This document shows, one piece after another, positions 1,175 through 62,443 of a stretch of 64,000 bases of DNA. Location: positions 1-64,000 of the forward strand of contig OMVU01000008.1 of NCBI GenBank assembly GCA_900314565.1. Reading direction: 5' to 3'. A program made the position numbers and the translations under genes. The notes below the pieces were generated by a model that searched no databases, had not been told where the DNA came from, and saw only the letters and a program-made list of their open reading frames with translations. This stretch comes from an uncultured Eubacteriales bacterium (lineage in GTDB: Bacteria; Bacillota; Clostridia; Lachnospirales; Lachnospiraceae). Within the stretch, counting starts at the first letter, position 1. Each line of letters opens with the position of its first letter.

Positions 1175-1250
1175 ATGCTGCTCCTTTTGAATGATCACGA
1201 TCTCTGATGGAACGGGCACCTCAAAGCACAGGATGTCTGTTGGGGCTTTT

Positions 1251-1436
1251 TTATCTCAGTGGGGAAGATCCCTGCTTCTATAAGCGGGGGATAGGTCAAT
1301 ATCCTGCTTGTCTCAGTGGCGGGTTTCAATCCCCCACTGAGATAAACGCCTCCGGCGGATCGCAGCCGCGCAAAGTGGAAGGTGCTTCGCACCATGCGCG
1401 GCGCGGCAGCGCGGCAAGAACGCTGAGGCGTTCTTG
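1251..1436 (-). repeat. A/B/C modular palindromic repeat, full copy (arm type CTCAGTGG)
   Basis: Read on the minus strand the order is: palindrome caagaacgcctcagcgttct tg (1415-1436); a GC-rich hairpin whose inner stem is GGTGCGAAGCACC; then a segment bounded by TTATCTCAGTGG and CCACTGAGATAA. An internal copy of the arm (CCACTGAG) follows a small GGG..CCC hairpin. Near the far end a CCCCCGC/GCAGGG hairpin resembles the end hairpins of IS200/IS605-type elements. Near-identical modules occur at 44753-44912. No reading frame is conserved. Confidence 0.85.
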
Positions 1437-1616
1437 AAAGCAGGCTGCTGTTTTCCCCGCCGATTCCGGAAGCGTGGGTCTGCCCACACTGAGATAACTA
1501 TATCATGCATCATGACCAGATGCAAAACTTGACAGAAAATGTAAAGTAAGACAAGATAAAATAAATAGAAATTGCCCACAGCACGAGGAGTCCGCGTGAG
1601 AGAAGAGACAGGCAGC
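1437..1616 (+). other. gene-free leader between repeats, possible remnant promoter of the flavodoxin
   Basis: No gene is seen. The stretch holds GTGGGTCTGCCCAC followed by ACTGAGATAA, a decayed end of the C-type repeat, and an AT-rich segment with TTGACA at 1529-1534 but no well-spaced -10. GAGGAG followed by GTG near 1594 could be a ribosome site, but the frame it opens runs straight into the next repeat and stops there. Confidence 0.35.
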
Positions 1617-3589: not shown

Positions 3590-3651
3590 CCGCGCAGACA
3601 GGAAGGTGCTTCGTACCCTGCGAGGCGCATCAAGAACGCCGGGCGTTCTTG
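3590..3651 (-). repeat. A/B repeat fragment
   Basis: Contains the palindrome caagaacgcc/gggcgttcttg (3631-3651) and, in the same orientation as the copy at 1251-1436, part of the GC-rich module with inner hairpin GGTGCTTCGTACC. The C segment is missing. It ends 12 bases from the stop of the next gene. Confidence 0.75.
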
Positions 3652-9690: not shown

Positions 9691-9740
9691 ACCTAAAGTT
9701 TAACGATAATTAAGAAATTAAAATATTACGGGAATAAGAT

Positions 9741-9760
9741 AAGAACGCAGAGGCGTTCCT
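9741..9760 (+). repeat. A-module palindrome fragment in a 5' leader
   Basis: AAGAACGCAGAGGCGTTCCT is a decayed copy of the A palindrome. It lies in the transcribed leader of the activase gene, 30 bases before the start. Confidence 0.6.
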
Positions 9761-9790
9761 GATCATATTGACACAGAGGTGAGAACGAAC

Positions 9791-14821: not shown

Positions 14822-14997
14822 TTGCGAAACTCTGTGCGATATGGGAATTGTTTGAACGATTCAAACAATCTGCACAAGCCTTAGAACTTCTTCATGAGCG
14901 AAAGATGTGGAATGAGCAAAAACCGTACTGTCTGAGCGAAGCGAGTTTACGTTTTTTGCGAATGCTTTTCCACATCTTGAGTGAATGTTAGAAGTTC
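14822..14997 (+). repeat. MITE-like hairpin element, copy 2 (right end truncated)
   Basis: Begins TTGCGAAACTCTGTGCG, holds a perfect palindrome ATTGTTTGAACGATTCAAAC, then the long hairpin with AGATGTGGAA/TTCCACATCT and outer arms GAACTTCT/AGAAGTTC. It stops at AGAAGTTC, seven bases before the metH ribosome site. The last 40 bases or so found in copies 1 and 3 are absent. Confidence 0.85.
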
Positions 14998-15012
14998 TGA
15001 AAGGAGGATACC

Positions 15013-19510: not shown

Positions 19511-19517
19511 CAGGAAA

Positions 19518-19577
19518 AGTTTCACTTTGCGCATTCATCTCAGACTCACATCACGAGAATTCTGCGTCAGAGATTAA
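19518..19577 (+). repeat. C-module fragment (right half, CTCTGACGC arm type)
   Basis: Matches the right half of the repeat at 34056-34240 (cactttgcgcattcatctca, then GCGTCAGAGATTAAA). It begins a few bases after the preceding T-run. Confidence 0.75.
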
Positions 19578-19830
19578 ATTTATTTATTCAGTTCCACAAA
19601 ATACCGGAAACAGGGGGCTGTTATTTAGTGCAAAATACATAAACGATTGACTTTTAACGCGTCACTGTATAAAATTCTTATTGAGCCTAATTTTGAGCTG
19701 TCTGTTTTCTGTGTCGACAAAGGAAACTTTCTGTGTTGATTTTCTTTGCGAAGCACAGAAATGGTGCTGTACAGGTACGTGTTAACGCATAAAGCGTTTC
19801 GCAATAAACAAAACAAGGGAGGAACTAATA
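19578..19830 (+). promoter_or_regulatory. leader and weak promoter candidate of the oligopeptide operon
   Basis: No gene is seen. TTGACT (19647-19652) and TATAAA (19668-19673) make a candidate promoter, with a short 15-base spacer. Downstream, TTTCTGTG..CACAGAAA forms a stem of eight pairs in the leader near 19728-19761. The ribosome site AGGGAGGA lies just before the oppA start. Confidence 0.4.
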
Positions 19831-21912: not shown

Positions 21913-21952
21913 GGGGAGCCTGTCGGATCGAATTCGCCGGCTCCCCGTTTTT
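21913..21952 (+). terminator. internal terminator/attenuator after oppA
   Basis: GGGGAGCC pairs with GGCTCCCC and is followed by GTTTTTA, whose T-run merges into the inverted repeat arm of the next element. It should lower transcription of the permease genes relative to the binding protein, as is usual in such operons. Confidence 0.75.
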
Positions 21953-22038
21953 ATCTCAGTGGGAGAAGGCCCCCGCTTCTTAAGCGGCAGGTCATGACAA
22001 ACTCGTCTCAGCGGAGGTCTGGTCTCCCACTGAGATAA
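21951..22038 (-). repeat. C-module repeat (CTCAGTGG arm type) inside the opp operon
   Basis: Bounded by TTATCTCAGTGGG and CCCACTGAGATAA, with an internal arm copy (CGCTGAGAC on the minus strand) and the hairpin CCCGCTTCTTAAGCGG. A and B modules are not evident next to it. It lies between oppA and oppB. Confidence 0.8.
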
Positions 22039-22153
22039 ACGCTCCGCGAAGATACGCAGGGATCCGATTTGGAAAATATCGGTTGACGCTGATCTTAAAT
22101 CCCGCGCTTTTGTCTCGCGGGCGAGACTTGAATGAAGAGGGATAGTTAGTTCT

Positions 22154-33970: not shown

Positions 33971-33994
33971 AATCTGTTTCTCTGACACGGGATT

Positions 33995-34055
33995 TCAAGA
34001 ACGCCTCCGCGCATTCATCTCAGACTTACATCACGAGAATTCTGCGGCAGAGAAT
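33995..34055 (+). repeat. A/C-module fragment
   Basis: Half of the A palindrome (caagaacgcc) is fused directly to the right half of a C segment (gcgcattcatctcagactta, ending in a decayed GCGGCAGAGAA arm). It abuts the full copy that follows, suggesting two nested or sequential insertions. Confidence 0.7.
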
Positions 34056-34240
34056 CAAGAACGCCTCGGCGTTCTTGCCGCGACGTGCGCGGCGCGTTAG
34101 CGCCTTCCGCTGCGCACGTCTGCGATCCGCCGGAGGCTTTTAATCTCTGACGCGGGTCTGTAACCCATGTCAGAGCCAAGTATCACTTTGCGCATTCACC
34201 TCAGACTTTCATCACAAGAATGAAGCGTCAGAGATTAAAA
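34056..34240 (+). repeat. A/B/C modular repeat, full copy (arm type CTCTGACGC)
   Basis: Order: palindrome CAAGAACGCCTCGGCGTTCT TG; GC-rich stem ACGTGCGC/GCGCACGT with inner hairpin GGCGCGTTAGCGCC; CTGCGATCCGCCGGAGGC; then a segment bounded by TTTTAATCTCTGACGC and GCGTCAGAGATTAAAA, with an internal arm copy GTCAGAG after a GGGT..ACCC loop. It lies between rpmF and acpP. Confidence 0.9.
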
Positions 34241-38559: not shown

Positions 38560-38573
38560 GATACTGTGTTTTT

Positions 38574-38648
38574 GAAGGTGCATCGCACCCTGCGCATCGC
38601 GCGTATCTCACGACTGAAGCCGCAGGATACGCACGATGATGAATAAAG
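38574..38648 (+). repeat. B/C-module fragment (CTTCATCGCG arm type)
   Basis: Inner hairpin GGTGCATCGCACC is followed by the right half of a C segment (gcgcgtatctcacgactgaa, then GATGATGAATAAAGC). It fills the gap between the tmcAL terminator and the convergent gene. Confidence 0.7.
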
Positions 38649-41180: not shown

Positions 41181-41210
41181 AAATAACCTCCATAAAATGA
41201 GCTGTACTGC

Positions 41211-41275
41211 AGGCGTGCGCAGTAAAAGGCACCACGGTGCCGCACACATCGCGCAGGAACGCCGAGGCGTTCCCG
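41211..41275 (-). repeat. B/A-module fragment
   Basis: On the minus strand a decayed A palindrome (GGGAACGCCTCGGCGTTCC) is followed by a B module with inner hairpin GGCACCGTGGTGCC. It ends eight bases from the coaE stop. Confidence 0.7.
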
Positions 41276-44691: not shown

Positions 44692-44752
44692 TTTTATCCT
44701 CCAGGCTTATTGAGCCGAACCATCTGTATGCGACAACATTCCGACCCCGATT

Positions 44753-44912
44753 CAAGAACGCCTCAGCGTTCTTGCCGCGCCGCGCATGGTGCGAAGCACC
44801 TTCCACTTTGCGCGGCTGCGATCCGCCGGAGGCGTTTATCTCAGTGGTGAGACGAGCAGGATATTGACCTATCCCCCGCTTATAGAAGCGGGGATATTCC
44901 CCACTGAGATAA
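44753..44912 (+). repeat. A/B/C modular repeat, full copy (arm type CTCAGTGG)
   Basis: Palindrome CAAGAACGCCTCAGCGTTCT TG, a B hairpin with inner GGTGCGAAGCACC, then TTTATCTCAGTGG..CCACTGAGATAA with the CCCCCGCTTATAGAAGCGGGG hairpin split by loop bases. Compared with 1251-1436, the small GGG..CCC hairpin after the first arm has been lost, so its internal arm is shortened to TGAGAC. It lies between polA and the zinc-finger protein gene. Confidence 0.88.
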
Positions 44913-44947
44913 TACGTTGATTTTCCGCGGTAACCGCAGCGTTCCTT

Positions 44948-49685: not shown

Positions 49686-49786
49686 TGAACAATGTTTATT
49701 CCTGCGGATTAAACGAAAGTTTTTCCCGCGGATCGAACAAAAGGTTTTTTCCTGCAGTTATCGGACAAACGTTTTTTTCCGGTGGA
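49686..49786. repeat. four imperfect tandem repeats of 24-29 bases
   Basis: Units of the form (G)AACAA-GTTTTTTCCTGCGGAT begin at about 49686, 49711, 49734 and 49763. They fill the spacer between the rhomboid-like gene and the divergent ABC-F gene. T-runs alternate with GC-rich TTCC(T/C)GCGG. Confidence 0.6.
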
Positions 49787-49832
49787 AATAATTTATAAAG
49801 TCAGTTATACTTTCCATGTTCGGAGGTTGCAC

Positions 49833-51770
49833 ATGATTTTAGATGTTCAGAAAATTTCAAAGACCTTTCCCGGAAATGAAGTGCTCCGGGAAGTCTCCTT
49901 CCATATAGAAGACCACGAAAAAGCCGCCCTCGTAGGCATAAACGGCGCAGGGAAATCGACGCTTTTAAAGATCATCATGAACGAGATGCCTGCTGATTCA
50001 GGCTCCGTCACGCTTGCGAAGGGAACCAGGATCGGCTATCTCGCCCAGCATCAGGATCTGACAGGGAATAACACGATCTTTGAAGAGCTGATGACCGTCA
50101 AAAAGGATATCCTTGCTCTCGATGCGGGAATGCGCGAATCCGAGCACCGCATGACGGAACTTGCCGGGGAGGAACTCGAAGCGGAGATGAAGCGCTATGC
50201 TGCCATGCAGGAGGCTTTTGACCGGCAGAACGGCTACGCTTATCGCTCCGAAGTCGTCGGCGTACTCAAAGGCCTCGGGTTTTCCGAGGAGGATTTCAGT
50301 AAAAAGGTCTCAACACTCTCGGGAGGCCAGAAGACCCGCGTAGCCCTCGGCACGCTCCTTCTCACCGCTCCCGATATCATCCTGCTCGATGAGCCGACCA
50401 ACCATCTTGACATGGGCTCGATCGTCTGGCTGGAGACCTATCTCCTGAATTACCGCGGCGCAGTGCTTATTGTATCCCACGACCGCTATTTCCTGAACCG
50501 TGTCGTCACCAAAGTGATCGAAGCGGACCGGGGCTCCTGCCGTACGTATCTGGGCAATTATGACGAATACAGCAAAAAGAAGGAAGAGATACGGCACGCC
50601 GAATATCTTGCCTACATGAAGGCGGAACAGGAACGGAAGCATCAGGAAGCTGTCATCGCAAAACTCAAACAATTTAACCGGGAAAAATCCATCAGGCGGG
50701 CGGAGAGCCGGGAGAAGCTTCTTGCCCGCATGGAGATGCCGGACAAGCCGCTCCCGGACAATGCCGTGATGTCACTTCGCTTCTCTCCCCGCTTTGAATC
50801 GGGAAAAGATGTCCTTACCGTGGAAAATCTCGGGAAAAGCTTCGGATCCGTGACCCTCTTCCGTGACATGTGCTTTGAAATCAAAAAGGGGGAGCATGTC
50901 GCGCTCATCGGGAATAACGGAACAGGAAAGTCTACTCTTCTCAAGATCCTGAACGGTGTGGTGCCGGCGGATCAGGGATCCTTTACACTCGGGGCTAACG
51001 TGACGATCGGCTATTACGATCAGGAAATGCACGTCCTCAACATGGACAAGACGATCTTTGACGAGATCTCCGACGATTATCCGGAGCTCACGAACACGAA
51101 GATCCGTACCGCGCTGGCAGCCTTCCTCTTTACCGGAGAGGACGTCTTAAAGTATATCCGCGATCTCTCGGGCGGTGAGCGGGCCCGCGTGTCTCTGTGC
51201 AAGCTCATGCTTTCGAGCGCGAATTTCATTATTCTTGACGAGCCGACCAACCACCTCGACATTGAGTCGAGGGAGATCCTCGAGACCGCCCTGAATTCTT
51301 ATTCGGGCACTCTGCTCTACGTATCTCACGACCGGTACTTCATAAACCGGACCGCGGGAAGGATCCTTGATCTCACGCACAGCCAGCTCCTGAACTATAT
51401 CGGGAATTACGATTACTATCTCGAGAAGAAGGAGACTGTGGAAAACGCATATCTCGCTCCCGCAGAAAGCGCTTCCTCCCAGACAGGCGAAACGGATTCC
51501 AAAGCGAACTGGATCGCGCAGAAGGAGGAGCAGGCGAGGATCCGCAAGCGCGCAAATGATCTTGCCCGCTGTGAAGCACGGATCGAGGCTCTGGAGACGG
51601 AAAATGCCGGAATTGACGAGCTCTTCCTTGATCCCGACGTCGCCAGTGATCCGCAGAAGTGCATTGATCTCGGTAGCCGTAAAGCAGAAATCGAAGAAGA
51701 GCTGGAAGGTCTCTACGAGCGGTGGGAGGAGCTGCAGGAAGAGCATTCAAGAACGCCTCGGCGTTCTTGA
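49833..51770 (+). CDS. ABC-F family ATPase (YdiF-like)
   Basis: A 645-residue soluble protein with two ABC domains and no membrane part. Domain 1: GINGAGKST, LSGGQKTRVALGTLL, IILLDEPTNHLD; linker rich in charged helices (about 240-320); domain 2: GNNGTGKST, LSGGERARVSLCKLM, FIILDEPTNHLDIESRE; then a C-terminal coiled coil (about 560-640). ABC-F proteins act on the ribosome, either easing stalls or protecting from antibiotics. The start follows CGGAGG. The last codons (HSRTPRRS) and the TGA come from the A palindrome of a repeat, so the native C-terminus has probably been replaced. Confidence 0.9.
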   Translation: MILDVQKISKTFPGNEVLREVSFHIEDHEKAALVGINGAGKSTLLKIIMNEMPADSGSVTLAKGTRIGYLAQHQDLTGNNTIFEELMTVKKDILALDAGMRESEHRMTELAGEELEAEMKRYAAMQEAFDRQNGYAYRSEVVGVLKGLGFSEEDFSKKVSTLSGGQKTRVALGTLLLTAPDIILLDEPTNHLDMGSIVWLETYLLNYRGAVLIVSHDRYFLNRVVTKVIEADRGSCRTYLGNYDEYSKKKEEIRHAEYLAYMKAEQERKHQEAVIAKLKQFNREKSIRRAESREKLLARMEMPDKPLPDNAVMSLRFSPRFESGKDVLTVENLGKSFGSVTLFRDMCFEIKKGEHVALIGNNGTGKSTLLKILNGVVPADQGSFTLGANVTIGYYDQEMHVLNMDKTIFDEISDDYPELTNTKIRTALAAFLFTGEDVLKYIRDLSGGERARVSLCKLMLSSANFIILDEPTNHLDIESREILETALNSYSGTLLYVSHDRYFINRTAGRILDLTHSQLLNYIGNYDYYLEKKETVENAYLAPAESASSQTGETDSKANWIAQKEEQARIRKRANDLARCEARIEALETENAGIDELFLDPDVASDPQKCIDLGSRKAEIEEELEGLYERWEELQEEHSRTPRRS

Positions 51771-51931
51771 CGCGACGTGCGCGGCGCGTAAGCGCCTTCC
51801 ACTGCGCACGTCTGTGATCCGCCGGAGGCTTTTATTCTTCATCGCGAGATTGTACTCACGATGAAGGCAAGTTTCACTTTGCGCGCGTATCTCATGTCTG
51901 AAGACACGAGTATTGCGCGATGAAGAATAAA
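51748..51931 (+). repeat. A/B/C modular repeat, full copy (arm type CTTCATCGCG)
   Basis: Palindrome CAAGAACGCCTCGGCGTTCT TG, B stem ACGTGCGC/GCGCACGT with inner GGCGCGTAAGCGCC, then a segment bounded by TTTATTCTTCATCGCG and CGCGATGAAGAATAAA, with an internal arm copy CGATGAAG. Its first 23 bases are coding in the ABC-F gene. Confidence 0.9.
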
Positions 51932-61973: not shown

Positions 61974-62007
61974 CGATATTTCCCCGGAAACTCAAATAAC
62001 AAGTGAT

Positions 62008-62238
62008 TGTGAAAATCTGCTCTTCATGTAAATTGTATGAACATTCAAACGGCTTCCGCGCCAAGAACTTCTAACATTCACTCAAGATGTGGAAAACCAT
62101 TCGCAAAAAACGTTAACTCGCTTCGCTCAGACAGAACGTTTTTTGCTCATTCCACATCTTTCGTTCATGTAGAAGTTCTAAGGCTTGTGCAGATTGTTTG
62201 AATCGTTCATACAATTTCATTTCGAGCAGAGTTTCACA
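62008..62238 (-). repeat. MITE-like hairpin element, copy 3 (complete)
   Basis: Bounded by TGTGAAAATCTGCTCT and AGAGTTTCACA (terminal inverted repeats of about 30 imperfect bases). The central hairpin has AAAAAACGTT/AACGTTTTTT where copy 1 has AAAAACCGTT/AACGGTTTTT: a paired change that keeps the stem. The outer arms AGATGTGGAA/TTCCACATCT are the same. Confidence 0.88.
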
Positions 62239-62256
62239 ATTGTCCTTATAAAAATC

Positions 62257-62443
62257 CAAGAACGCCTCGGCGTTCTTGCCGCGACATGCGCGGCGCGTCA
62301 GCACCTTCCAATGCGCACGTAACGCGATCCGCCGAAGGCCTTTATTCTTCATCTTGAGATTGTACTCACGATGAAGACAGGTTTCACTTTGCGCGTATCT
62401 CACGACTGAAGTCGCATGTATTGCGCGATGAAGAATAAAGCTG
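62257..62443 (+). repeat. A/B/C modular repeat, full copy (arm type CTTCATC)
   Basis: Palindrome CAAGAACGCCTCGGCGTTCT TG, a B stem with inner GGCGCGTCAGCACC, then TTATTCTTCATC..GATGAAGAATAA with internal CGATGAAG. The left arm has drifted (CTTCATCTTG). It lies between the leuS terminator and MITE copy 3. Confidence 0.88.

Follow-up and report, generated by a model that had tools for sequence, protein, structure and literature searches.

A modular repeat of about 185 bp, arranged in the order A (a palindrome), B (a nested hairpin) and C (an arm-bounded segment), is very probably a non-autonomous transposable element of the IS200/IS605 type, resembling the palindrome-associated transposable elements (PATEs), which is probably moved in trans and whose choice of target would be guided by DNA. 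As judged from sequence comparison, a TnpA transposase probably moves it. The window, meaning the whole stretch of 64,000 nucleotides that was analysed, holds five full copies. A sequence-only reading had listed five, and each was found at its place, the one at 1251-1436 lying on the minus strand; the fragments it had put near 3590, 19518, 21951, 33995, 38574 and 41211, and a spot near 9741 with A alone, were recovered as well. The features are listed below, where "mobile strand" denotes the one running against the A-B-C reading direction.

1249..1438, minus strand: full copy, version CTCAGTGG
3591..3651, minus strand: A-B fragment
9739..9762, strand not given: A palindrome alone
19514..19578, plus strand: C fragment, CTCTGACGC version, 3′ part
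21949..22040, strand not given: C fragment, CTCAGTGG version
33979..34053, plus strand: remnant of an older copy, C-type 3′ part and half an A, immediately preceding the focal copy
34054..34234, plus strand: focal full copy, version CTCTGACGC; mobile strand is minus; boundaries placed by comparison with other copies that have clean empty sites
34056..34077, plus strand: focal part A, palindrome CAAGAACGCC TC GGCGTTCTTG; right-end hairpin on the mobile strand
34083..34119, plus strand: focal part B, nested hairpin, ACGTGCGC/GCGCACGT enclosing GGCGC/GCGCC
34144..34234, plus strand: focal part C, arm-bounded segment; left end on the mobile strand
34144-34153, about 34166-34175 and 34225-34234: forward, inner inverted and terminal arms of focal C
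about 34200-34219: left-end hairpin of focal C
34235..34239, minus strand: target pentamer TTTAA (mobile strand) of the focal copy, taken as site-derived; equal to the internal pentamer at 34139-34143
38573..38647, plus strand: B-C fragment, CTTCATCGC version
41205..41272, minus strand: degraded A-B fragment
44751..44914, plus strand: full copy, version CTCAGTGG, with a deletion inside C
51746..51931, plus strand: full copy, version CTTCATCGC, ending in ATAAA (target TTTAT on the mobile strand)
62255..62443, plus strand: full copy, version CTTCATCGC

The repeat is abundant within a narrow taxonomic range. A profile search of the window at E<=1e-4 returned 10 merged places against none in two shuffled controls, a density of 16 per 100 kb, and two syntenic 180 kb stretches of relatives, selected without regard to the repeat, gave 14 and 5 places. 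The copies belong to a genome-wide family: in the whole genome (G000, a draft of 4.2 Mb in 191 contigs), 40 places were scored among at least 291 first-look candidates and the total may reach hundreds. With a full copy as query (E<=0.001), 17 of 42 genomes of the Lachnospiraceae genus have matches, some of them short, and none of 38 genomes from outside the genus does. The exact pattern of A occurs in at least 103 stretches of public species genomes; the assembly titles of those listed are all Lachnospiraceae, Eubacterium or (once) Clostridia, and several name goat or sheep ileum. An assembly titled Lachnospiraceae bacterium AD3010 is among the carriers of this pattern. Viral contigs gave no exact pattern match. 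Of the 15 matches listed for the CAMOYN assembly, 14 sit within about 150 bases of a contig end (L066, L071, L073-L075, L078, L084, L089, L098, L116, L120, L129 and L136 are such loci), so the repeat seems to break assembly. An unrelated second high-copy repeat of about 150-230 bp occurs in the window at 1617-1839, 14846-14998 and 62006-62239, with many matches in G034 and G005; by sequence reading it holds a short reading frame (MELFEQFKQSAQALELLHERKMWN..).

Aligned full copies (45) are about 165-236 bp long, which is too short for a transposase gene. A is a 22 bp palindrome and nearly invariant, while B is an outer stem enclosing a short hairpin and comes in several paired versions. Some copies carry an optional hairpin, D, of about 46 bp between B and C. 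C runs from a forward arm through an inner inverted arm and a short CTC..GAG hairpin to a terminal inverted arm. The three arm versions described from the window, in each of which the far arm changes to match, are real; in every version the arm is present three times, once forward and twice inverted, so that the forward arm is able to pair with either partner. Modules are freely combined, both main B versions being found with all three C versions, and C and D also occur in other elements whose A and B differ. For example, elements at L021, L030 and L377 have another A and B (GAATTCTCGC..; CCGAATCCCTGCGCATCC..CGGAG) and share the C of the main family, together with short words such as ATCC and CGGAG; the one at L377 shares D too. 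They and the main family perhaps form a wider superfamily of one layout. Between L003 and L044, whose flanks are 99.4% and 96% identical, one copy differs by D, present or absent between CCGCCG and GAGGC, with the D hairpin partly N in L044. Further arm versions are found in other species (CTACAAC.., TGCA-CTTTC.. and TCAACTC.. at L113, L088, L093 and L112), and the outer bases of these arms suggest other target pentamers. At the acpP-side site of G005, the element at L164 has different A, B and C sequences in the same part order and the same TTAAAAAGGCTG joint as the focal copy, and is either an independent insertion at the same target or a case of very deep divergence.

The fold of the repeat is maintained by paired changes. 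We aligned 45 full copies from several genomes with MAFFT, without fitting the alignment to structure; these were kept from 60, once the near-duplicate L106 and copies from 14 loci, picked by hand for their internal deletions, rearrangements or Ns, had been set aside. In this alignment 91.6% of 2277 cells pair, and 202 cells are changed on both sides, compared with 82 +/- 8 in shuffles (0 of 500 shuffles as high), although many of these double changes track the version, so they represent fewer independent events than the cell counts imply. Such changes fall in 19 of the 51 pairs, and sliding the partner by 1-3 columns leaves only 16-53 both-side-changed cells. The alternative hairpin of the arm pairs in 90.9% of cells and has 71 both-side-changed cells against 28 in shuffles, with a number of changed pairs that is not above shuffles; further pair types do not exceed shuffles in either the main or the alternative-hairpin run. 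Helices 1 and 2 of A have no pair changed on both sides. Since A hardly varies, the covariation rests on B and C: the paired variation first noticed in the B hairpin is borne out, and the short hairpin in C has several stem types. Unaided, RNAalifold predicts A and B only.

Mismatches give an indication of which nucleic acid folds. With three column pairs set aside, the element strand shows G.T 43 times and A.C 46 times; the two are about equally frequent, so nothing points to RNA of the element strand. Mismatch bias is confined to those three column pairs, one of which (the B base, a pair that we chose ourselves and for which RNAalifold prefers another partner) favors the element strand, whereas two favor the mobile strand. 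In the particular case of the CTC..GAG hairpin, A.C, equivalent to G.T on the mobile strand, is found in 61 cells against 4 with G.T. The earlier suggestion of selection on structure, in RNA or as single-stranded DNA, is supported in part: selection on a folded single strand, or propagation by way of one, fits, and single-stranded DNA is the better of the two options.

Comparison of filled and empty sites between relatives allowed us to interrogate the ends of the element and its mode of insertion. Four of 16 sites compared were informative, the others being shared, eroded or diverged. With the element in round brackets, the first clean site reads CACAT(TTCAAG..GATGAAGA)ATAAACC in L133 and CACATATAAACC in the empty L002, where CACAT is joined directly to ATAAACC. 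The second reads GGTAAG(TTTCAAG..GATGAAGA)ATAAATTTACC in L271 and GGTAAGATAAATTTACC in the empty L329, with GGTAAG joined to ATAAATTTACC and flanks that are about 99% identical. At the third, L002 is filled, TTCAA(ATCAAG..CAGAGA)TTAAAAAG, and L133 is empty, TTCAATTGAAAAG, with TTCAA joined to TTGAAAAG and limits that are ambiguous by one base; since the filled site reads TTAAAAAG, the two species differ in the target, with TTTAA in one against TTCAA in its relative. A near-clean site, the filled L160 compared with L067 (CCTATGACAT..ATAAAAAC), has a joint of this kind that a small tandem repeat makes less sharp. No target-site duplication was found at the three clean sites or the near-clean one. 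The ATAAA beside the element pre-exists at the empty sites (as TTGAA at the third) and is site-derived, so that on the mobile strand the element begins directly after TTTAT or TTTAA. Precise, duplication-free insertion after these pentamers is a signature of IS200/IS605 (Y1/HUH) single-strand transposition. The termini, TCTTCATCGC.. and ..GGCGTTCTTGAA, are not mutually complementary and so form no terminal inverted repeats, and the C arms pair the tip with the interior and not end with end. Near-terminal palindromes are present on both sides, with the left-end hairpin, which starts with ATTCTCGTG, 13 nt from the left tip and A at most 3 nt from the right tip.

No clean boundary was found at the window copies 1251, 34056, 44753, 51748 and 62257, nor at C134:21660 and C144:30254; the copies C134:9069, L160-4852, L022 and L003 are shared with a relative, L067-4607 has diverged, and alignment of G021 with G023 (180 kb each) yielded no clean new site, most of what it showed being partial copies in an eroded state. 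Truncated copies are frequent, which indicates decay, and the copy at 44751, which lacks A and B in G034 and has no counterpart in G005, is a further example. G034 is without the 62255 copy, together with the directly adjacent copy of the second repeat at 62006-62239. The last codons and stop of an open reading frame at 49782-51770, ABC-F-like by sequence reading, are supplied by part A of the 51746 copy, and its counterpart in G034 stops shortly before the element position. Copies lie on the lagging-strand template, the orientation that the IS200/IS605 family leads one to expect, in 39 of 65 cases, which is not a significant bias (p = 0.14); the full-length subset appears stronger in this orientation, a comparison picked after seeing the table and not counted.

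The choice of target follows the version of the element. Copies of version CTCTGACGC lie mostly at TTTAA, and copies of versions CTTCATCGC and CTCAGTGG mostly at TTTAT. Inside each version, beside the forward arm, its target pentamer is present once more. Among the 84 copies with readable direction (102 of 186 rows, with opposite reading direction or a direction that could not be told, were dropped), target and internal pentamer are equal in 48: 25 of 42 for CTTCATCGC, 9 of 13 for CTCAGTGG and 14 of 29 for CTCTGACGC. The pentamers are unequal in the other 36, many of which have the internal arm missing or rearranged and were kept in the counts. Where the fifth base is A or T at both places, it agrees in 69 of 75 copies (Fisher p = 4e-14), some of which are orthologous and hence not independent. 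Every insertion encounters its own site, so common descent is not an easy explanation for the match between target and version, although some copies are orthologous. In 36 of 40 copies, the base immediately 5′ of the left-end hairpin, which belongs to the version, pairs with the final base of the target; 10,000 shuffles give a mean of 20.8 and a maximum of 32. One copy, L346 in G005, has TTGAT at both the target and the internal place, and a hairpin foot of AATG rather than AATA. At the other end, counting only AT or TT, the two bases before CAAG are AT in 17 of 18 CTCTGACGC copies and TT in 32 of 32 others, with other bases in 7 further copies; the versions may descend from few ancestors.

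Y1 transposase genes in these genomes offer a candidate for the enzyme. Nine Y1 matches were found in the same genome (G000) and 30 in eight relatives, and 38 loci were fetched. A full-length frame, L052, scores above the cut-off of the NCBIfam IS200/IS605 transposase family, and its best solved relative is 2xm3 (164 bits), which we take to be the ISDra2 TnpA; further full-length TnpA frames are present. The TnpA motif of L052 occurs at 8 of the 38 loci, seven of them gene starts only, so that the argument depends on a single intact gene. Upstream on the tnpA strand, all 8 of these loci have the hairpin ATTCTCGTG-loop-CATGAG, 14-15 nt after a common TTGA, and the left end of the element has that hairpin 13 nt after TTTAA or TTTAT in the same direction. 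A G.T in the stem is common to the element (34 of 40 copies) and the IS605-type loci. In a 567 kb set from the same genome, chosen around copies, the hairpin pattern has 22 occurrences in elements and 5 outside them, the latter appearing by reading to be two IS605-like ends, one C-like end and two unrelated places. Single-base shuffles produce the pattern 2-7 times in this set, which makes it weak evidence by itself; what counts is its place and direction. The IS605 elements that share the hairpin follow TTGA, a target read from their shared bases rather than from empty sites, and not TTTAT or TTTAA.

The right side of the element has no such counterpart, hairpin A and module B matching no definable IS end among the 38 loci. 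A with up to 3 substitutions is present at three of them, L347, L364 (both A-B-C copies) and L362. The one in L362 (1301-1320; G034 C326) is degraded, with 3 substitutions, and may include part of B; it is found 180 bp downstream of tnpA, and its strand is the one that a right end should occupy. With a repeat so common, a chance neighbor is expected, and this A is probably one. A second, IS200-like type of TnpA is found at L347, L379 and L056, with ATAAA next to the hairpin at its left end. The sole candidate for an autonomous version with tnpA between B and C, L347, proved to be such an IS200 (845-1845; G034 C341) inserted with its tnpA into an A-B-C copy, 3′ of the internal TTTAT and without target duplication, its limits ambiguous by one base.

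There are other possible explanations for the repeat. One keeps the IS200/IS605 kind and names the IS200-type TnpA (L347, L379) as the enzyme: the L347 IS200 lies 3′ of TTTAT and that of L379 follows CTCTTTAT, the target of the CTTCATCGC and CTCAGTGG versions. We consider this unlikely, as the third IS200 copy, L056, follows TTTTCTCT with its ATAAA changed too, a BLASTN search at E 0.01 found no match between the IS200-type hairpins and the element, whose left-end hairpin does occur in the ISDra2-like subfamily, and the TTTAA copies would be left unexplained. The repeat could also be a structured non-coding or cis-regulatory RNA, spread by unknown means, whose covariation reflects RNA folding. 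B and C do covary, the same arm has two alternative pairings as in attenuators, and copies lie mostly between the large frames of the window in a mechanical ORF list. Against these points, the window at the Rfam gathering threshold gives two tRNAs only and no match to the repeat, G.T and A.C are unbiased on the element strand outside the three column pairs, truncation is frequent, and the paired stem includes the target pentamer, which is external to the element and already there at empty sites; an RNA origin is accordingly improbable.

Two further readings concern other kinds of mobile repeat. Movement of REP/BIME-type units by a RAYT (REP-associated tyrosine transposase) would be in keeping with Y1 frames of 212-276 aa in G012 and G003, since RAYTs are of comparable length. 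It was dropped as very improbable: no element motif lies near the three long Y1 frames, L052 falls under the RAYT cut-off (37.9 versus 80 bits), and the hairpin foot is mostly AATA or AATT and not the GT[AG]G given in the extracts available of PMC6006769. Those extracts and PMC8266576, also available in part, describe REPs, short palindromes whose movement is ascribed to a Y1 enzyme, TnpA-REP; the present repeat is a larger multi-hairpin unit with defined ends, and no associated RAYT was seen. Length (around 200 bp), copy number, modular A-B-C naming and strong predicted folds recall BOX of Streptococcus pneumoniae, and we considered whether a DDE transposase moves the repeat through terminal inverted repeats, as a BOX- or MITE-like element. 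BOX has terminal inverted repeats and target duplications according to the parts of PMC3049150 at hand. The repeat has neither, its layout is unrelated, and the empty sites (0 of 4 with a duplication) contradict a DDE-type MITE, which is hardly credible.

The preferred reading, a PATE-like element of the IS200/IS605 type, places the repeat in a known kind. The sequence-only reading knew of no named family with this layout, and our literature searches found no description of the repeat or of its exact layout; the kind, however, corresponds to PATEs, reported from Haloquadratum walsbyi within the IS200/IS605 superfamily (PMC3119063, from the portions available). As described there, PATEs have no room for a transposase, no target duplication, a 4-5 nt target kept at the 5′ end, near-terminal palindromes of which the left is further from its end than the right, a left palindrome related to IS605-type ends, high copy number and internal deletions, all of which apply to the repeat. 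Unlike PATEs in those portions, it is bacterial and modular, its left end comes in several versions in which arms change in step with targets, it has an extra nested hairpin B and an optional D, and its right palindrome was not traced to an IS. For this last reason we call it PATE-like, its membership being incomplete. It looks to work like an IS605 derivative, and left and right hairpins that differ are also known from Halanaerobium IS605 elements (PMC7290912, in excerpt).

Excerpts on the two best-known systems allow closer comparison. ISDra2 goes in 3′ of TTGAT, on the lagging strand and with no duplication (PMC8612924). IS608 likewise inserts 3′ of its target without duplication, the targets of the two being 4-5 nt long. 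The IS608 target is chosen by pairing with a guide that lies 5′ of the hairpin (guide AAAG, target TTAC, the last target base pairing as G with C), and IS608 was retargeted in the laboratory through guide changes (PMC5934647). The repeat shares with this pair the insertion 3′ of a short T-rich target without duplication, an irregular (G.T) position in the left stem, and the fit between a base 5′ of the hairpin and the last base of the target. It differs in having no tnpA or tnpB, in its target of TTTAT or TTTAA instead of TTGAT or TTAC, in the much longer pairing of target and tip with an internal segment, and in its dissimilar left and right hairpins. The same genome also encodes a TnpA akin to the one in 2xm3.

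A mechanism consistent with these features can be proposed. The mobile strand, with C as its 5′ (left) end and the A hairpin as its 3′ (right) end, would fold as single-stranded DNA. A Y1 (HUH) TnpA supplied in trans, most likely of the ISDra2-like L052 type from the same genome, would bind the subterminal hairpins and make two cuts, at the left just 3′ of the pentamer (TTTAT or TTTAA) and at the right 1-3 bases beyond CTTG. The circle would then be pasted 3′ of another such pentamer, which is not duplicated. The target would be chosen by pairing with DNA inside the element: each version has an internal copy of its target pentamer, and its hairpin-foot base could pair with the last target base. 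Either of these two internal matches may be the guide. As the element carries both the version-specific internal pentamer and the foot base, the covariation of the arms would keep the left-end fold and the target matched.

The stem formed by target and arm with the internal copy is about 16 bp, far longer than the 4-nt guides. A possible, though doubtful, extension of the model is that the target is read by an extended DNA-DNA duplex in which the pentamer and the first 11 nt or so of the left tip pair with the internal segment. If so, the guide held by the element would be exchangeable and self-matching, and concerted change of guide and tip would give rise to versions with new targets (TTTAT, TTTAA, TTGAT), with other species perhaps adding CTACAA- or TGCAA-type arms. 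The family would then be a natural series of retargeted single-strand transposons served by one transposase, with left-end and right-end modules swapped.

Covariation in a repeat family need not mean RNA, as here the insertion target itself forms part of the paired stem. The genus holds dozens of insertions, with version tied to target and at least one further target (TTGAT), and its genomes let the rules by which single-strand transposons choose and change their targets be read and then tested.
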